Source: Reyranella sp. CPCC 100927
GTDB lineage: Bacteria; Pseudomonadota; Alphaproteobacteria; Reyranellales; Reyranellaceae
Direction: 5' to 3'
Length of the DNA: 64,000 nt
Assembly: GCF_007859315.1 (NCBI RefSeq)
Contig: NZ_VOHA01000006.1
Coordinates: 124,001-188,000 of the forward strand
Shown here: piece after piece, positions 51,299-60,366 of the stretch
Numbering within the stretch: the first letter of the stretch is position 1
Layout: the number at the start of each line of letters is the position of its first letter
The notes under the pieces: generated by a model
Seen by the model: the letters and a program-made list of their open reading frames with translations, nothing else
Database searches by the model: none
What the model was told of the DNA's origin: nothing
Made by a program: the position numbers and the translations under genes

Positions 51299-53332
51299 TT
51301 AGCGCGGCAGCGCGAACGCCATGACGGTGTCGCCGATCCTGGTGCCCAGCGCCGAGTGGCCGCCGGCGGCGATGACCACGTATTGCCGGCCGCCGGCGGC
51401 GTAGGTCATCGGTGTGGCCTGTCCGCCGGCCGGCAGTTCTCCCGTCCACAGTTCGGTACCGGTCTGCAGGTCGAACGCACGCAGCATGTTGTCGGTGGTG
51501 GCACCGATGAATACCAGACCGCCAGCTGTGATGATCGGGCCGCCGAAATTGGGCGTGCCCCAGCGGAACGACAGTCCCAGCGGCACCAGCCCTTTCGTGG
51601 TACCCAGCGTCTGCTCCCAGGCCAGCTTGCCGCTCTGCAGGTCGATCGCCGTCAGTGCACCCCACGGCGGTGGATTGCATGGCATGCCCAGCGGCGAGAG
51701 CAGGACCTCGCGGCGGATGCCGTAAGGCGCGCCGCGCTGGCGGGTGATCTCCACGCCGGGGTTGGCGCGCCGTGCCGCTTCGACCTGGTCGGCTGGTACC
51801 AGGGTCAGCAGCTGTACGACCCGGTTGGTGTTCACCACCATGCGGTTGGAGCGCGGGTCGACCGCGACGCCGCCCCAGTTGGCGCCGCCGCCGCTCATCG
51901 GAAACTGGACCGAACCCCGCAGGCTGGGCGGCGTGAACGGGCCTTCGTTGCGCGATCGCTCCAGAACGCGCCGGCAGGCGCGGCGGTCGAAGAAGAGGAT
52001 GCCGAAGGCGTCATCGCTCGCCAGCGTGTGCGGCACGATCGTGGGCAATCCAGTCGAGTAAGGTTGCGTCGGATGCGTGCGTTCGCCCGGTACATCGGAG
52101 GCTGGCACCGGCAGCTCTTCGACCGCGAACAGCGGCGCGCCGGTCTCGCGGTTCAGCACGAAGACGAAGCCCTTCTTGGTGGCAAACACCAGCGCCGGCA
52201 CTGACTGCCCCTCACGCGTGAGCGTGATGAGGGTGGGGGCCGCTGCCACGTCGGCGTCCCACAGATCGTGATGTACGGTCTGGAAACGCCAGACGACCTC
52301 GCCGGTGCGGCCGCGCACGGCGACCACGCTGTTGGCATCGCGGTTCGCGCCCAGCCGCAGGCCACCGTAAAAATCCGGGCTGGGGCTGGAGGTGGGCAGG
52401 AACACCAGGTCGCGCTCGACATCGACCGAGATCGGACCCCAGACATTGGCCTGGCCAGTGCGGGCTGCCGACTCGCCTTCCCAGGTCGGGCTGGCGATGA
52501 GATCGAACCGGCGCGGTACTGGATCGAACGTCCAGAGCAAGGCGCCGCTGCGCGCGTCGAAGGCGCGCACCATGCCGGACGGCGCATCGATCCGCCGGTT
52601 GTCGGCACTGGCCGAGCCCACCACCACGACGTCGCCGATCACGGCGGGCGCCGACGTGATGTGCAACTCCTCGGCGTCCATCAGCGGCTTGTCCGGCACG
52701 ATGGTGACGATGCCGCCGTTGCCGAATCCGGGGCACAGGCGCCCCGTGCGCGCGTCGAGCGCGATCAGCCGCAGATCGTTGGTCGCCGTCACGATACGCA
52801 CGGCGCAAGGGGCATCGGCGGCGAGCTGCCGGTCGGTCCATTGCGCCACGCCGCGGCAGGCGATCGCCTTGCCGATCTGCGCGATCGTGGTGTCGGACAG
52901 TTGCGGGTCGTACACCCAGCGTTCGGCACCGGTGATCGGATCCAGCGCGATGACGCGATTGAACGGCGTGCAGAACACCAGATGGCCGGCGGCCAGGATC
53001 GGCGTCGCCTGGAACTTGCCGCGCCGCGCCGCTGGACCGCGCCGTTCCAGCTCACCGGTGCGATATGTCCAGGCCGGCGCCAGGTGCGCCACGTTGGCTG
53101 ATGTGATCTGGGCCAGCGCCGAATAGCGCCCATGGCCAGGATCGCTGCCGGTATTGGTCCACGACAAGTCGTCGTCGACCGGCGCCCAAGGCGTGGGCTT
53201 GCCGCTGACGGTGCCTTGCGGCGGGCGATACTGGAAGGCGTACACGAAGGCGCCGCCGCCCAGCAGCACAAGGCCCACGATGGCGGCGACAACCCATAGC
53301 CACATCCGCCACCTCCCCATGCGACGGGTCAT
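51299..53332 (-). CDS. Membrane-anchored PQQ-dependent dehydrogenase (quinoprotein glucose dehydrogenase-like)
   Basis: 677 residues from ATG 53332, which overlaps the acyltransferase stop (ATGA). Seen: M-T-R-R-M-G-R-W-R then one membrane helix (about 9-30), so the enzyme faces the periplasm. W repeats of the eight-bladed propeller are visible: G-A-E-R-W-V-Y-D-P, G-A-L-L-W-T-F-D-P, G-E-V-V-W-R-F-Q-T, G-K-L-A-W-E-Q. The H-H-D-L-W-D motif near residue 355 and W-G-G-V-A-V-D-P near 520 are typical of mGDH-type PQQ enzymes. It lacks the usual five-helix N-terminal membrane domain. Oxidises a sugar or alcohol and passes electrons to the quinone pool (inferred). No pqq biosynthesis genes nearby. Confidence 0.92.
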   Translation of the reverse strand: MTRRMGRWRMWLWVVAAIVGLVLLGGGAFVYAFQYRPPQGTVSGKPTPWAPVDDDLSWTNTGSDPGHGRYSALAQITSANVAHLAPAWTYRTGELERRGPAARRGKFQATPILAAGHLVFCTPFNRVIALDPITGAERWVYDPQLSDTTIAQIGKAIACRGVAQWTDRQLAADAPCAVRIVTATNDLRLIALDARTGRLCPGFGNGGIVTIVPDKPLMDAEELHITSAPAVIGDVVVVGSASADNRRIDAPSGMVRAFDARSGALLWTFDPVPRRFDLIASPTWEGESAARTGQANVWGPISVDVERDLVFLPTSSPSPDFYGGLRLGANRDANSVVAVRGRTGEVVWRFQTVHHDLWDADVAAAPTLITLTREGQSVPALVFATKKGFVFVLNRETGAPLFAVEELPVPASDVPGERTHPTQPYSTGLPTIVPHTLASDDAFGILFFDRRACRRVLERSRNEGPFTPPSLRGSVQFPMSGGGANWGGVAVDPRSNRMVVNTNRVVQLLTLVPADQVEAARRANPGVEITRQRGAPYGIRREVLLSPLGMPCNPPPWGALTAIDLQSGKLAWEQTLGTTKGLVPLGLSFRWGTPNFGGPIITAGGLVFIGATTDNMLRAFDLQTGTELWTGELPAGGQATPMTYAAGGRQYVVIAAGGHSALGTRIGDTVMAFALPR

Positions 53333-54516
53333 GATCCGGCCTGCGTTGCAAGTGGGCGGCGTGACCGCGCCGCGCCACGTATCTTCAAACCGAACAGCGG
53401 GCGCAGGAAGTCGATGCGACGGACTATGCCCTCGTAGATCAGCCACGTGCCGAGGAACGTGGCGCCGGCGGTGAGGACGAATTTCAGGCTGACGGGCAGA
53501 TCGGCGGAGGCCAGATGGTAGGCGACGATGACCGTCACTGTCTGGTGCAGGATGTAGAACGGGTAGACGGCTTCAGTGGCGTAAGCGAGTCCCGCCGGCC
53601 GTGTCCGGAGGTGGCGGGTCACAAAGCCGGTGATGGCGAACAGCCAGGCCAAGCCGTTGATGTTCTCCAGCAGGATGTGGTCCAGCCTGCTGGCCAGCGC
53701 CGGGCTGGGCCAGGCCGGGTTCGAGAAGAAGGCAATGTAGAGGGCGGCGTACGAGACGATGCCGACGGCCAATGCCAGCCAGCGCTGGCGCGCCATGAGG
53801 TCGAGCAGGAGCGGACCGCGCAGCAGCAGGGCACCGTAGAGCAGCAGCAGTGCCGCGCTGGCCAGCCCGACCCAGTCACCGACCAGCCCGTTGCGGTTGG
53901 ATGACAGCGGCGCCAGCCAGACCTGGATCGCGGTCGGCGGCAGCACCAGCAGCCAGAGCAAGCCGCCCTGGGCTGCGACGCGCTGGGACAGGCGGTCGAG
54001 CGTGGCGGCCCCGGCCGGCGACCGCATCCACAGGAACACCGGCAGCAGCACCAGAGTCAGGATCAGGACATAGGCCAGGAACCAGAGGTGATGCCAACTC
54101 ATGTTGCCGGCGGGGTAGACGCCGGTGAGGGCCTGCGGCAGGAATTCCAGGAACGAACCGGAAAACTGGCCGCGCTGCAGACGCTCCAGGTAGACCTGCG
54201 GCGGCACGATCACCAGCATGCCGAACGCCAAGGGCAGCAGCAGGCGCTGCAGGCGGTCGCGCACGAAGGCACCCGGCGTGCGCCGGCCCAGGGCCAGCAG
54301 GATGGCGGCGCCGGACACCAGGAACACCAGCGGCATGCGCCAGCGGTTCATGAACCGCATGACCGCCTCCAGCCACAGCGCGTGCTGGGGATCCTTCACG
54401 TGCCAACCCCATGACGTGTAGGCCATGCCGGCGTGGTAGAGGATCAGCAGGCTGAAGGCGCCGACCCTCAGCCAGTCGATGTCGGCGCGACGGTCGGCGG
54501 AAGAAGTGGCGATCAT
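53329..54516 (-). CDS. Acyltransferase-3 (OafA/YrhL-type) membrane protein
   Basis: 395 residues with about ten hydrophobic segments. Seen: R-R-A-D-I-D-W-L-R-V-G-A-F at the N-terminus with the usual R/D-W-L-R start of the family, H-A-G-M near residue 29 with the proposed catalytic His, P-L-V-F-L-V-S-G-A-A (helix 2), and W-H-L-W-F-L near 140. The family acylates sugars or polysaccharides at the inner membrane, often O-acetylation. Stop overlaps the PQQ dehydrogenase start, so the two form an operon. Promoter region contains a hairpin at 54529-54548 and the direct-repeat array at 54586-54640. Confidence 0.92.
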   Translation of the reverse strand: MIATSSADRRADIDWLRVGAFSLLILYHAGMAYTSWGWHVKDPQHALWLEAVMRFMNRWRMPLVFLVSGAAILLALGRRTPGAFVRDRLQRLLLPLAFGMLVIVPPQVYLERLQRGQFSGSFLEFLPQALTGVYPAGNMSWHHLWFLAYVLILTLVLLPVFLWMRSPAGAATLDRLSQRVAAQGGLLWLLVLPPTAIQVWLAPLSSNRNGLVGDWVGLASAALLLLYGALLLRGPLLLDLMARQRWLALAVGIVSYAALYIAFFSNPAWPSPALASRLDHILLENINGLAWLFAITGFVTRHLRTRPAGLAYATEAVYPFYILHQTVTVIVAYHLASADLPVSLKFVLTAGATFLGTWLIYEGIVRRIDFLRPLFGLKIRGAARSRRPLATQAGS

Positions 54517-54585
54517 GTGAAGGCTCTGGCGGCAGTGGGAACTGCCGCTGTTTGTCGATCACAAGCCCCTGATTCCAGGGCAAAA

Positions 54586-54640
54586 TGTGACGACCGGCAC
54601 CGGGGCTGTGACGACCGGCGATGAGTTTGGGACGAACGGT
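54586..54640 (-). promoter_or_regulatory. Three 13-bp direct repeats, 21-bp period, matching the AlgR/LytTR box
   Basis: TGTGACGACCGGC at 54586-54598 and again at 54607-54619, and TGGGACGAACGGT at 54628-54640: starts exactly 21 bp apart. On the minus strand the last repeat reads ACCGTTCGTC, containing the CCGTTCGTC core known for AlgR; the other two read CCGGTCGTC (8 of 9). LytTR regulators are known to bind direct repeats about two helical turns apart. The array lies 70-124 bp upstream of the acyltransferase start. A LytTR gene is encoded at 59392-60366. Confidence 0.7.
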
Positions 54641-54670: not shown

Positions 54671-55567
54671 TTACTCCTTTACGGCGCCGGTCAGGGACGA
54701 GACGTAATAGTCGACAAAGAACGAATAGAAGATCGCTACCGGCAGCGAGCCCAGCAGGGAGCCCGCCATCAGGGCACCCCATTGGTAGACGTCGCCCGAG
54801 ATCAGTTCGGTGATGATGGCCACCGGCACGGTCTTCTTCTCGCTGCTCTGGATGAAGGCCAGCGAGTAGATGAATTCGTTCCATGACAGCGTGAATGAAA
54901 AAATCCCGGCGCTGATCAAACCGGGAACGGCCAGCGGCAGGGTGATGCGGCGCAAGATCTGCAGGCGGGTGGCGCCGTCGATCAGGGCGCATTCCTCGAG
55001 TTCGTAAGGGATCGACTTGAAGTAGCCGATCAGCAGCCAGGTGCAGAACGGCACCAGGAACGTCGGGAAGGTCAGGATCAGCGCCAGCGGCGAATCGAAC
55101 AGGCCGAGCTGGAACACCACCGTCGCCAGCGGAATGAACAGGATCGAGGGCGGCACCAGGTAGGCCAGATAGATCGCCAGCCCGACATACTGGCTGCCCC
55201 GGAAGCGCAGGCGTTGGATCGCGTAGGCGGCCAGCACGCTGCTGAACAGGGACAGGAAAGTCGAGCAGACCGCGATCAGCATCGTGGTCAGCAGCCACTT
55301 GGGATAGGCGGTCTGGAACAGCAGCTTGTAGATGTGGTCCAGCGTCGGGCTGCCGATCAGGAACGGATTGTAGGTCTTGTAGTCGTAGAGCTCGGCATTG
55401 GGTTTGAACGACGTCACCGCCATCCAGTAAAACGGAAACAGCAGGATCAGCACGAAGCAGGCGAGCGGCACGTAGAGCAGCACGACCCGGCGCGCGCGGT
55501 TGTCCCACGCCATCGCCTCGGGGACGGCAGTGGCGCTGCCCTTGGTTTCGGCAGGAACGTCAGTCAT
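54671..55567 (-). CDS. ABC sugar-type transporter permease (MalG/UgpE class)
   Basis: 298 residues, about six hydrophobic segments after a ~25-residue cytosolic leader. Seen: the EAA loop E-C-A-L-I-D-G-A-T near residue 195 followed by I-T-L-P-L-A-V-P, contacting the ATPase, and W-N-E-F-I-Y-S-L near the end. Second permease of a CUT1 importer; its start overlaps the MalF-type gene by eight bases. Solute not deducible; the family carries oligosaccharides, polyols and glycerol-3-phosphate. Confidence 0.93.
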   Translation of the reverse strand: MTDVPAETKGSATAVPEAMAWDNRARRVVLLYVPLACFVLILLFPFYWMAVTSFKPNAELYDYKTYNPFLIGSPTLDHIYKLLFQTAYPKWLLTTMLIAVCSTFLSLFSSVLAAYAIQRLRFRGSQYVGLAIYLAYLVPPSILFIPLATVVFQLGLFDSPLALILTFPTFLVPFCTWLLIGYFKSIPYELEECALIDGATRLQILRRITLPLAVPGLISAGIFSFTLSWNEFIYSLAFIQSSEKKTVPVAIITELISGDVYQWGALMAGSLLGSLPVAIFYSFFVDYYVSSLTGAVKE

Positions 55568-56516
55568 TGCCTTCTCCCTGCTGCCACTTGCGCCGCGCCA
55601 GCGCGAAGTAGCTGAAGAGGGTGGCGAATACGAGGAACGGGATCATGGCCACCGCGATCGCGGCGCCTTCTCCCAGCTCGCCGCCGGAGATGCCGCGCTG
55701 GAACGCCAGCGTCGCCATCAGATGGGTCGAGTTCACCGGCCCGCCGCGGGTGATGGCGTAGACCAACTGGAAGTCGGTGAAGGTGAAGATGATCGAGAAC
55801 GTCATCACGATCGCCAGGATCGGCAGCAGCAGCGGGAAGGTGATGTAGCGGAACCGCTGCCATCCGGTGGAGCCGTCGAGCAGGGCCGCCTCATAGAGCG
55901 ACGGCGAGATCGTCTGCAGGCCGGCCAGCAGCGAGATCGCCACGAACGGAATGCCGCGCCAGATGTTGGCCGCGATCAGCGACCAGCGCGCCGGCCATGT
56001 CGTGCCCAGGAAGTCGAAGTAGGTGGTGCGCACGCCCAGCACGTCGACGAACACGTAGGAGATGATCGAGAACTGCGGATCGTAGATCCACCAGAAGGCG
56101 ATCGCCGACAGGACGGTCGGTACGATCCACGGCAGCAGGATGATGGCGCGCAGCAGGCTCTTGAACGGCAGGTGGTTGTTCAGCAGCAGCGCCAGCCACA
56201 GGCCCAGGGCGAACTTCCCGAACGTCGCCACCGCCGTGTAGAAGATGCTGTAGAACACCGCGCTCCAGAACTGCGGGTCTTCCATCAGGTATTCGAAGTT
56301 CTCCAGGCCGATCCACTGGCCGCTGCGGCCGATCTTGGTGTCGGTGAAGGCGAGCCAAATGCCCAACCCGAGCGGGTAGGTGAGGAACACCGTCAGCAGA
56401 CCGACCGCCGGCAGCAGGCAGGCGATGACCAGGAACGGCTTCCAGTCGAACAGGCGCACCAGCCAGTTCGGCTGCGTCCGCTTGGGCGTCCAATCCGATA
56501 CGGCAGCGACGGCCAT
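55560..56516 (-). CDS. ABC sugar-type transporter permease (MalF/UgpA class)
   Basis: 318 residues with about six to seven hydrophobic segments. Seen: F-L-T-Y-P-L-G-L-G-I-W-L-A-F-T-D near residue 44, W-G-type periplasmic loop, and the EAA loop E-A-A-L-L-D-G-S-T near 230 followed by I-T-F-P-L-L-L-P. Forms the channel with the MalG-class protein. A repeat-containing gap of 155 bp separates it from the receptor gene upstream. Confidence 0.93.
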   Translation of the reverse strand: MAVAAVSDWTPKRTQPNWLVRLFDWKPFLVIACLLPAVGLLTVFLTYPLGLGIWLAFTDTKIGRSGQWIGLENFEYLMEDPQFWSAVFYSIFYTAVATFGKFALGLWLALLLNNHLPFKSLLRAIILLPWIVPTVLSAIAFWWIYDPQFSIISYVFVDVLGVRTTYFDFLGTTWPARWSLIAANIWRGIPFVAISLLAGLQTISPSLYEAALLDGSTGWQRFRYITFPLLLPILAIVMTFSIIFTFTDFQLVYAITRGGPVNSTHLMATLAFQRGISGGELGEGAAIAVAMIPFLVFATLFSYFALARRKWQQGEGND

Positions 56517-56527
56517 GGAACCTCCTG

Positions 56528-56661
56528 TAAGAGAAGATTCACCACTGAGACACGGAGGACACGGAGATCACAGAGGATGACGTTTAGCGCCGCAGGCGCC
56601 CGGATCTCTTCTCTCTGTGTCCTCTGTGCACTCTGTGCCTCTGTGGTGAAGGTTTTCTCTT
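56528..56661. repeat. Long inverted repeat between receptor and permease genes
   Basis: TAAGAGAA...CACCAC on the left (56528-56545) mirrors GTGGTG...TTCTCTTA on the right (56643-56661), with repeated GGAGGACACGGAGA / TCTGTGTCCTCTGT segments in the arms and GCGCCGCAGGCGC in the centre (56588-56600). Such 'cacagaggacacagag' palindromes occur as dispersed elements in many bacterial genomes. It lies inside an operon, so transcription must pass through it. Confidence 0.75.
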
Positions 56662-56671
56662 ATCTGCCTCT

Positions 56672-58003
56672 CTACCCGCGATAATACCGGCGCGTGCGGC
56701 GCTCGGCTTCCTTGGCGGCGTCCTCGGGCGTGGCCTGGCCTGACGCGACCGAGGCACACATCTGCACCTGGATGTACTCGGCCGCAACCGTGCCGGAGGC
56801 CTGAGTGATCGGCCCTTTATAGCCGGTCCAGAACTGGTTGTTCATGCCCTCGCGGTAGATCGCCAGTTTGGGATCGCTCTCCCACACCTTGCTGGCATTG
56901 TACGCCTTCAGCGGATGCGCCCAGTAGCCCAGGCAGCCGGTCAGCCAGGCATCGTACTGTTCGGCCTCCATCATGTAGGTCAGGTACGCCTTGGCCGCGT
57001 TCTGGAACTTGGAGTGCTTGAACACCATGGCGTTCAGGACCAGTGCCGACTGCGGTTGCCTGCCGATCACGCCGCTGGGCAGCGGTGCGTGGTTGGTGTC
57101 GTCGGCGATCGCCTTGGTGGCGGGGTCGTTCTTGAGCGCGAAGTAGAGCGACACGCCGTTGGCCGTCAGCCAGACTTCGCTGGCGGCAAAGGCGCGGTTG
57201 TTGCTGGGATCGCCCCAGCTCATCGTGCCGGCGACGAAATTGGGATAGAGCTCCTTGAGATACTTCAGCGCCGCCACTGTCTCCTTGCTGTTGATGGATA
57301 CCTTGCCGTCCTCGTCGACCAAATAGGCGCCGTGCGACCACAGCAGCCAGTTGGCGAAGCCGTTGCCGTCGCCGACGGCGTTGCCCAACGCGAAGCCCGC
57401 CGGCTTGTTGGCCTTCTTCAACGCCTGGGCGAGCTTCAGGAAGTCTTCATGGGAGCTGGGCACCTTGTCGAAGCCGGCTTCCTTCAGCGCCGACATGCGA
57501 TAGACGATCGGTCCGGTCGAGCCGCCGAACGGCAGGCCGATCCAGTTGTTGGTCTTGGCGCGCTTGCCGTACTTCTCGCCCAGGAACATCCAGCCGCCAT
57601 ACTTCTTGCCCAGGTACTCGGCGACGTCGGAAAGCTCGATCAGCTTGTCAGTATAGACGTGCGGATCCTCGGCCCATCCCAGCACGATGTCAGGGCCGGC
57701 GCCGGTGTTGGCCGACACCGCGGTCTGCTGGCGGATGTCTTCCCAGCCGACGAAGTCGACGCGCACGTTGACACCGGTTTCCTTGGCGAATTTCTCGGTG
57801 TTGGCGCGGAAGATCACTTCGTCCGGCTCGACGAAGCGCGCCGGCCGCAGCACGCGCAGGGTGGCGCCGCTCTCGATCGAGAACTTGGGCGCCGTCGCCT
57901 CCGCCTTGGGAATCTGTGCCGAGGCGCGCCCGGCGAATGCGAGCGCGGCCGCTGCACCTGCACCCAGCCGGATGCTGTCACGACGCCTGATGATGTAGAC
58001 CAC
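56672..58003 (-). CDS. ABC sugar-type transporter substrate-binding protein (UgpB/MalE class)
   Basis: 443 residues from GTG 58003, which follows GGAGGAAACC; the frame is open to 58126 but crosses a palindromic repeat. Seen: R-R-R-D-S-I-R-L-G-A-G-A-A-A-A-L (twin-arginine-type signal) ending R-A-S-A-Q, then F-A-K-E-T-G-V-N-V-R-V-D-F-V-G-W, and W-A-E-D-P-H-V-Y. Cluster B/D solute-binding protein. Periplasmic receptor for the CUT1 importer encoded around it. Confidence 0.92.
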   Translation of the reverse strand: MVYIIRRRDSIRLGAGAAAALAFAGRASAQIPKAEATAPKFSIESGATLRVLRPARFVEPDEVIFRANTEKFAKETGVNVRVDFVGWEDIRQQTAVSANTGAGPDIVLGWAEDPHVYTDKLIELSDVAEYLGKKYGGWMFLGEKYGKRAKTNNWIGLPFGGSTGPIVYRMSALKEAGFDKVPSSHEDFLKLAQALKKANKPAGFALGNAVGDGNGFANWLLWSHGAYLVDEDGKVSINSKETVAALKYLKELYPNFVAGTMSWGDPSNNRAFAASEVWLTANGVSLYFALKNDPATKAIADDTNHAPLPSGVIGRQPQSALVLNAMVFKHSKFQNAAKAYLTYMMEAEQYDAWLTGCLGYWAHPLKAYNASKVWESDPKLAIYREGMNNQFWTGYKGPITQASGTVAAEYIQVQMCASVASGQATPEDAAKEAERRTRRYYRG

Positions 58004-58025
58004 GGTTTCCTCCTTTGTGAATTTT

Positions 58026-58147
58026 CTCCCCCACGCAGTGGGGGAGGTGGCCGAAGGCCGGAGGGGGAACACTCGTGGTGCTGATAACAAAGACCACGTC
58101 GGCTCCCCTCCGCCCCTTCGGGGCACCTCCCCACTGGCGTGGGGAGG
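58026..58147. repeat. Long inverted-repeat element, copy 2
   Basis: Starts with CTCCCCCACGCAGTGGGGGAG and ends with the mirror CTCCCCACTGGCGTGGGGAG. Inner arms CCGGAGGGG and CCCCTCCG; shared core AAGACCACGTCGG with the element at 51179-51298. It lies in the gap between the ATPase and receptor genes of one operon. Confidence 0.8.
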
Positions 58148-58159
58148 ATACGTTCTCCC

Positions 58160-59218
<1,059 letters not shown>

Positions 59219-59391
59219 CAATCCTCCCAACGGAACGCCTGCCGGTCATGCTTCTTGGGGCATGATCTGAATTCAGCAGGCTAACACGATGACCCGGGGC
59301 ACAATCCAGCACCGATGCGACCCATCCCCGCCGATTTAGGCCATTGAACTCCGCCGCCAGATGTTGCAGCCGCCCGTCGCAGGAAGTGTCA

Positions 59392-60366
59392 TCACGTCCG
59401 GACCGGCACAACTTTCTCGAAGCGCGGGCGATAGCGGCGGCTGAGGCTGACGACGGCGCCGTCGTCAAGCTTCAGGCGCGAGTCGCCGCTGATCCACGGC
59501 TCGACCTCGCGCACGCGCTCGACATTGACGATGTAGGATTTGTGCACCCGCACGAACCGGCTGGGATCGAGCTCGGCCTCCAGCCGCGACAGTGACGAGC
59601 GGATGTCGTAGGTCTCGCCGCCGACATGGAGGATGGCGTAGTTGCCGGCAGCCTCGATCCAGGCGATGTCCTGCGCCGACACCAGGATCTCCTTGTCCTT
59701 GCGGCGCACCGCGAAGCGCTCCAGCCGACCGGCTGGGCTCCCGGGCGGCGGATCATCAGCCGGCGGTTCGGCGGCTGGCACGTCGGCTATCGTCGCGTCG
59801 GTTGCCGCGGCCGCGGGCTTCTCGGCAAAGACATAACGCAGCGCCACCAGCACCGTGCTCAGGATCAGGTAGGTGATGGCGTCCTTGCGGTATTCATAAA
59901 ACAGCGTGTCGAGGTCGAGCTGGATCGAATAGGTGCGGCCCAGCAGCGGCGCGATCGCCCAGCGCAAGGCGAACATGCCCAGCACATGCACCAGGCTGAA
60001 CGGCACGGTGATCGCGGCATGAGCCAGCAGGTTGCGGCCCAGCGGCACCGGCGGAAAGCGCCGGTGGAACCAGTAGAGAGCCGGCACCATGGCGCCGATC
60101 ATCAGGTGACTGGATCCTTCGAGCAGGATGGCCCAGGCCAAGGTCATGGACCGTCCGTGGCGCAGGGCATCGGCGTGCACCGTGGCGACGGCGATCACGG
60201 TGATGGCGACCAGGACGATGACCCAGGCCGCCGCGATGCGCTGCCGGTACAGCCACGCGCCGAACCGCTGCCGCCAGGTTGGCGGCACTGCGGGTGGCGG
60301 GGTGGGCGCGTCGTCGGGCATGCGTGTCTGAAAGCCTGGGGCCTTCCATAGCGTCTCACCCGGCAT
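59392..60366 (-). CDS. Membrane-bound LytTR-family DNA-binding regulator
   Basis: 324 residues; the start may be ATG 60366 or the downstream ATG 60321. Seen: four hydrophobic helices (about 42-62, 73-97, 110-130, 150-170), a Pro/Ala-rich linker, then a LytTR domain from about residue 222 to the end with A-R/V-R-R-K-D-K-E, I-E-A-A-G-N-Y, R-F-V-R-V-H-K-S-Y-I-V-N, and S-R-R-Y-R-P. There is no receiver domain, so it is of the one-component, membrane-anchored LytTR type. It probably senses a membrane or envelope signal and binds paired direct repeats; such repeats are at 54586-54640, downstream on the same strand. Confidence 0.9.
   Translation of the reverse strand: MPGETLWKAPGFQTRMPDDAPTPPPAVPPTWRQRFGAWLYRQRIAAAWVIVLVAITVIAVATVHADALRHGRSMTLAWAILLEGSSHLMIGAMVPALYWFHRRFPPVPLGRNLLAHAAITVPFSLVHVLGMFALRWAIAPLLGRTYSIQLDLDTLFYEYRKDAITYLILSTVLVALRYVFAEKPAAAATDATIADVPAAEPPADDPPPGSPAGRLERFAVRRKDKEILVSAQDIAWIEAAGNYAILHVGGETYDIRSSLSRLEAELDPSRFVRVHKSYIVNVERVREVEPWISGDSRLKLDDGAVVSLSRRYRPRFEKVVPVRT

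Follow-up and report, generated by a model that had tools for sequence, protein, structure and literature searches.

The 64,000-nucleotide stretch of DNA analysed here, referred to as the window, carries three 9-bp direct repeats on its minus strand (54639 to 54589), the starts of which lie exactly 21 bp apart with 12-bp spacers between them. Read on the plus strand they appear as 13-mers, TGTGACGACCGGC occurring twice (54586-54598 and 54607-54619) and TGGGACGAACGGT once (54628-54640). The repeats sit in a 154-bp gap between the end of an ABC permease gene (54671) and the start of an acyltransferase gene (54516), and 72 bp separate the end of the third repeat from the acyltransferase start codon. 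The locus comprises the following features:

54631..54639, minus strand: repeat 1, CCGTTCGTC, which equals the 9-bp core of AlgR; among the three repeats it is the one least strictly kept in relatives
54610..54618, minus strand: repeat 2, CCGGTCGTC, 21 bp after repeat 1
54589..54597, minus strand: repeat 3, CCGGTCGTC followed by ACA, 21 bp after repeat 2
54555..54573, minus strand: block at a fixed distance past repeat 3, ATCAG..CTTG....GA, probably the core promoter
53329..54516, minus strand: acyltransferase-3 membrane protein (PF01757, 84.2 bits), first gene of the putative controlled operon
51299..53332, minus strand: PQQ-dependent dehydrogenase (PF01011), second gene, whose sequence shows a single hydrophobic stretch in the N-terminal part
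54671..59230, minus strand: sugar-type ABC transporter genes by profile matches (permeases 54671-55567 and 55560-56516, binding protein 56672-58126, ATPase 58160-59230), which we do not assign to the regulon
59392..60366, minus strand: membrane LytTR regulator P0001 (PF04397, 87.6 bits), four-helix in its structure model

The stop codon of the acyltransferase gene overlaps the start codon of the PQQ dehydrogenase gene in an ATGA (53332-53329), so that both genes likely form one operon. The acyltransferase scores 101.6 bits against the OpgC/MdoC profile NF003014, below the cut-off of 338, and the dehydrogenase 671.4 bits against TIGR03074 (membrane-bound, glucose/quinate/shikimate), below the cut-off of 832.65; the latter profile has been aligned from position 120 on, which leaves its N-terminal membrane part uncovered. 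The LytTR gene lies ~4.75 kb upstream of the repeats, with the four ABC transporter genes in between. A first-pass annotation of the window had pointed out the exact 21-bp phasing with the AlgR core once and a second sequence twice, the position of the repeats upstream of the acyltransferase/PQQ dehydrogenase genes, and the membrane-bound LytTR gene. The first of these observations has been borne out by the coordinates and by the shuffles described below, the second agrees with the 154-bp gap and the ATGA overlap, and the third with the PF04397 match and the four-helix membrane model.

Orthologues of the ABC genes, 90-97% identical, are found at the corresponding place in Vineibacter terrae CC-CFT640 (G001, locus L114), one of two same-genus genomes, and the other loci of the 40-locus set compared lack the cassette there, as does the second same-genus genome, strain SYSU D60007 (G003). 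Between the window and V. terrae, the four ABC proteins share this 90-97% identity, the flanking LytTR protein 69%, and the acyltransferase 77%; judged from these sequences, the cassette may be a later arrival or may be under unusually strong constraint. Reyranella is, as we take it, the larger genus of the family.

The repeat element in its own genome and in the family

With up to two mismatches, the pair pattern GACGAMCGG-N12-GACGAMCGG has been found three times in the window, the two exact matches making up the triplet, and in 100 dinucleotide shuffles of the window the mean was 0.09 matches, with none of the shuffles reaching three. In the whole genome (9,084,006 bases in 81 contigs), the two matches of the triplet are the sole exact ones, and the next best carries one mismatch. 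At up to three mismatches the pattern is not enriched genome-wide (146+127 matches vs. 353+354 for the reversed control). Loose pattern counts have accordingly been discarded as evidence, as the reversed controls of two-site patterns with 1-3 mismatches turn up about as often or more often, and weight is given only to the exact, phased form. This form falls within the LytTR operator geometry of 9-bp direct repeats 10-13 bp apart, as defined in the CoxC study (PMC11347149), here with 12-bp spacers and in three copies. On contig C23 of the same genome (~254376-268901; L006, L007, L017-L021), GACGAACGG-like pairs recur at intervals including 636 and 1272 bp, a spacing as expected from a long gene of repeated domains.

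A test free of pattern-selection bias is provided by the 260 bp upstream of the best 30 acyltransferase loci, own locus included, which were chosen regardless of repeats and in which a site was counted when at least 7 of 9 positions matched. A site pair at spacing 21 occurs in 26 of these 30 regions and a triple in 20, and each of the spacings 12-20 and 22-30 occurs in 0-3 of them. Among the four loci that lack sites (L032, L034, L051, L053), the first two have the element in front of an FAD oxidase gene immediately upstream (L120, L121), and the genome of L053 (G030) carries it together with the LytTR gene on another contig (L122). In G020 (L051), the acyltransferase gene (product 49% identical) directly follows the LytTR gene without an element between them, and the element of this genome stands before the FAD oxidase gene.

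Across the family, a triple pattern with up to three mismatches has been located in 64 of 75 genomes at 73 places, 38 of them without mismatch, which amounts to about one element per genome (one element of G003 being counted twice, in two registers); with the pattern reversed, a manual count of the table yields 16 places in 15 genomes. Part of this family had served to build the pattern by which the elements were picked, so that conservation at the site columns partly reflects selection, and only columns outside the pattern are independent. Four of the 11 genomes without a triple (G024, G026, G075, G078) carry two-site elements before genes of the same kinds, the others being G002, G005, G013, G029, G064, G089 and G094, of which the LytTR status is known for the first four. 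The first gene of the query set after the 73 elements codes for an acyltransferase-3 in 42 cases and an FAD oxidase in 28. Of the three places without a target, L264 lies at a contig end with the LytTR gene upstream, and L259 and L286 are G+C-rich three-mismatch places that look like chance.

In the 63 elements compared, the distance from element start to start codon is 80-187 bp, and repeats 2 and 3 reach 1.5-2.0 bits per column, with repeat 1 lower at two positions. The conserved cores extend to GCCGGTCGTCCCA and GCCGGTCGTCACA, separated by ~8 variable columns (0.1-0.96 bits). Conserved columns outside the search pattern comprise a flanking G and CCA, and the parts ATCAA (66-70), TTG (75-77) and GnTA (81-84) of a block ATCAA..TTG...GnTA spanning columns 66-84. 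Its TA is present in 87% of the elements (55/63), the window having GA there, and repeat 3 ends 32 bp before it; 17 bp ahead of the TA, the 63 elements show no conserved -35. Written out as ATCAAgG.cTTG...GnTA, the block is strictly spaced throughout this set. A sigma factor for the block has been sought and no name was reached, the -35 not being conserved. From its sequence, the block may be a promoter of unusual type or else an additional operator, with the inverted CAAG..CTTG.

The FAD oxidase of the relatives is a berberine-bridge-like protein of ~594 residues, three of three representatives scoring above the PF01565 and PF08031 cut-offs; its N-terminus resembles a signal peptide, and we take these N-termini to be export signals. 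In G018, G019, G021 and G023 the element of the FAD oxidase gene adjoins the LytTR gene. In six further genomes (G028, G069, G072, G074, G088, G091) the FAD oxidase element is located on another contig and a second element precedes the acyltransferase gene, and G035 has both targets in a row (L148). For 46 of the 63 elements, a LytTR gene is found no more than 1.5 kb upstream. The 17 others include contig ends and gene-interrupted cases such as the window itself, and 10 of them precede FAD oxidase genes, which suggests control in trans; the LytTR regulator would have two kinds of target, probably controlled in trans. At L117, L131 and L287, two FAD oxidase matches stand in tandem after one element. 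A further recurring gene follows the acyltransferase gene or lies nearby (downstream of it in L121 and L119, also in L148 and L132), and its product begins, as we read it, like a thiolase.

Co-occurrence of regulator, element and target genes

Of 37 family genomes, 33 encode an orthologue of the LytTR protein (E <1e-60), and all 33 carry the element, 31 as a triple and two (G024, G026) as a two-site element. No triple has been found in any of the four genomes without the orthologue (G002, G005, G013, G029), of which G002 and G013 are incomplete. G005, assembled as one contig, keeps an FAD oxidase (64% identical) without a LytTR orthologue and without the element, and is the clean case. No element precedes the LytTR gene itself in the 30 of the 40 compared loci that hold both, where the elements lie downstream and more divergent repeats would be missed.

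Outside the family, the best 80 of 397 LytTR loci have been considered, two of which (L154, L155) belong to the same-genus genomes. In 17 loci (L156-L172; Colwellia, Rheinheimera, Pseudoalteromonas, Alteromonas, Hirschia, Euryhalocaulis and uncultured bacteria) the aligned region includes membrane part, and all 17 have a target within 1.5 kb, 16 times an acyltransferase and once an FAD oxidase, all divergent. Among the 61 other loci of the best 80, matching mainly in the LytTR domain, none adjoins such a target, a control that is weakened by the origin of most of these loci in distant phyla, in which homology to the query enzymes is more easily missed. From 337 genomes sampled across the class, 15 matches outside the family were obtained: the nine that include membrane part (G167, the weakest, being assigned to this type by a 261-residue match) all adjoin an acyltransferase (6) or a PQQ dehydrogenase (3) gene, and none of the six matching mainly in the LytTR domain does.

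The motif CCGNTNRTCC, which was set after part of these sequences had been inspected, has been counted in 23 regions before acyltransferase or oxidase genes, the three PQQ loci being left out. It occurs on the target-facing strand in 13 of the 23 and on the other strand in none (shuffle mean 0.27), and with one mismatch in 23 vs. 2 (shuffles 4.7). In several gammaproteobacteria the repeat period is 20 instead of 21 bp (L157-L159, L162-L164, L167; e.g., the triplet of L163).

The first-pass annotation had predicted a circuit leading from an envelope signal through the LytTR protein to sugar acylation and periplasmic sugar oxidation. Considering the 17/17 and 9/9 membrane-type loci vs. 0/61 and 0/6 others, this circuit appears right in outline, with a one-component, four-helix membrane LytTR regulator and an operator of three repeats, and with binding, the envelope signal and the sugar substrates as predictions. 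The comparative evidence strongly favors a LytTR-type operator, the LytTR protein of the window and the acyltransferase as target, and AlgR itself is not supported, no receiver domain having been found. Support for the oxidation branch is indirect. The element precedes FAD oxidase genes in relatives, and a PQQ dehydrogenase adjoins three of the nine class-level membrane LytTR loci (G041, G214, G167). A conserved acyltransferase-PQQ dehydrogenase operon has been rejected, the adjoining pair being seen in the own genome only among the matches searched; no PQQ dehydrogenase match occurs in the 40 compared loci, 27 of them with an acyltransferase. Site pairs with 21-bp spacing do exist at L315 and L325 (G214, G041), but they lie inside the LytTR open frame, where coding constraint is possible, and have not been retained as strong evidence for control of the PQQ dehydrogenase. 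At L316 no site has been found, and the LytTR and PQQ dehydrogenase genes converge.

The membrane LytTR protein and described LytTR systems

P0001 exceeds the PF04397 cut-off of 22.6 bits by far, and the LytTR domain is its only Pfam match at E 0.001, neither a receiver domain nor an MHYT domain being detected at this threshold. In the structure model (mean pLDDT 83.1, pTM 0.50, 20 sequences), four long helices (31-69, 76-103, 111-142, 152-195) are followed by a low-confidence linker and the C-terminal LytTR domain at about residues 210-324. The fold of the latter has been matched by Foldseek to 3d6w (E 4.4e-8) and AgrA (1.4e-5), and the search with the membrane part returned no match at E 0.001. 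Invariant in the 20 aligned sequences are YEYRKD (157-162), S124, H127 and M131, which hints at a sensing or coupling function of these residues.

The closest precedent for a membrane LytTR regulator with a triple operator is CoxC of Afipia carboxidovorans, a membrane MHYT-LytTR regulator of the cox genes. Its description reports three repeats 18-21 bp apart, all of them needed, and calls membrane association unprecedented among described LytTR regulators (PMC11347149). Like CoxC, P0001 would be a one-component protein in which a membrane-bound sensor is fused to a LytTR domain. In contrast to the seven-helix MHYT sensor, the repeats TTNNNGCN and the repressed CO-oxidation genes of CoxC, the present system has four modelled helices without an MHYT match (PF03707) at E 0.001, repeats CCGGTCGTC, and other targets.

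Further likenesses concern other parts of the system. P0001 shares the LytTR domain with AlgR of Pseudomonas aeruginosa, whose 9-bp core is given as CCGTTCGTC (PMC4064291) and is identical to repeat 1. AlgR, however, is a response regulator partnered by AlgZ, and its sites need not be direct repeats spaced by 12 bp, whereas the spacing here is fixed; identity with AlgR has been rejected for P0001, in which no receiver domain was found (Pfam, E 0.001) and the N-terminal part is modelled as four helices. The LytTR regulatory systems (LRS) HdrRM and BrsRM resemble it in having a membrane input and 9-bp direct repeats, separated by 12 bp, directly above the promoter, and the repeats of LRS operons tend to sit 10 bp above the -35 (PMC6193735). 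They combine a soluble regulator with a separate membrane inhibitor and are autoregulated; here helices and LytTR domain form one polypeptide, and the repeats do not precede the regulator's own operon in the 30/40 loci mentioned above. The same source names Bacteroides operons with LytTR regulators of several transmembrane segments. RcoM of Paraburkholderia xenovorans likewise has a LytTR domain and a direct-repeat triplet with 12-13 bp spacers, and differs as a heme-based CO sensor with the repeat TTCNNGCA, as described in PMC11347149. Among the open-access papers listed, judged by their titles and the openings of their abstracts, none is an account of the present regulon, and none was found that mentions LytTR together with 'berberine bridge'.

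Proposed mechanism and alternative readings

The triple repeat is very probably where a membrane-anchored LytTR regulator docks, and we consider it likely that it is the operator through which the LytTR protein of 59392-60366 switches on the acyltransferase operon. P0001 would then be a one-component membrane regulator in which four membrane helices are connected by a flexible linker to the DNA-binding LytTR domain, and three LytTR units would occupy the three 9-bp sites side by side on the same DNA face, at a distance of two helical turns. Placed just upstream of the core promoter, these units would most likely aid RNA polymerase where a good -35 is absent. The -35 would be located near position 60 of the element, and the TA at 83, which the window's own copy lacks, would be part of the -10; such a -35 fits the distance of 10 bp towards which LRS repeats tend. 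Activation would concern the acyltransferase operon, with the PQQ dehydrogenase gene probably co-transcribed in the own genome, and in relatives a matching operator would also serve the FAD oxidase, in some cases on another contig than the regulator gene. The signal would be sensed in the membrane, and an envelope or periplasmic carbohydrate would be modified and oxidised. The sequences themselves show the repeats, the conservation of these repeats at constant geometry, and the linkage between regulator gene, element and target genes; we infer binding, activation over repression, the membrane signal, and the modification and oxidation of carbohydrate.

The same operator could also be used in the opposite sense, i.e., the LytTR protein might repress and be lifted off the DNA by the signal. 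Repression is what CoxC exerts, of the membrane LytTR regulators described so far the closest one, and its three repeats overlap the -35 box (PMC11347149). With 32 bp between repeat 3 and the TA, however, the place of the -35 falls outside the repeats, no good -35 is conserved there, and activation from a position upstream of the -35 is described for most LytTR regulators (PMC11347149), the LRS repeats tending to lie 10 bp above it (PMC6193735). These arguments depend on the promoter as placed above, and on balance we regard repression as unlikely.

Still less probable appears the reading that another factor, either a different LytTR protein or an unrelated regulator, binds the repeats and that the neighbouring LytTR gene is incidental. 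Binding by P0001 is a prediction, and two further LytTR genes are present in the genome (L002, C6:15248; L003, C4:57978). Their products have hydrophobic N-terminal halves of another kind and both align weakly with P0001 (29% over 83 residues, E 5e-4; 23% over 81, E 0.24), the element accompanies the LytTR orthologue in 33/33 genomes vs. 0/4 without it, and the pair stays close while other genes change. That the repeats constitute a terminator, an attenuator or a mobile repeat is very improbable; their position between the ABC permease and acyltransferase genes would suit such a role, and against it stand their direct orientation, a similar distance to the start codon, their occurrence before two kinds of target, and their number of about one per genome. 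A chance repeat in G+C-rich DNA, which the behavior of the loose patterns relative to their reversed controls would allow, can practically be dismissed given spacing 21 in 26/30 unselected regions vs. 0-3 at other spacings.

Returning to activation by a membrane-anchored LytTR protein, one may postulate, with about an even chance of being right, a widespread and so far undescribed one-component family in alpha- and gammaproteobacteria, characterized by the four-helix membrane sensor, its invariant YEYRKD motif and the LytTR domain fused to it. Its members would convert a membrane signal, perhaps quinone redox state or envelope glycan, into envelope acylation and periplasmic oxidation via phased CCGnTnRTCC sites with a period of 20-21 bp, and the three enzyme types would be interchangeable in one regulon. 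If true, this would represent another branch of membrane LytTR regulators, with a different sensor part and different targets from CoxC. A membrane sensor type would gain a named operator and a named target set, and the acyltransferase-3 proteins would be tied to a regulator in many genomes. The recurrence of repeats, regulator and target kinds in relatives makes the guessed circuit testable.
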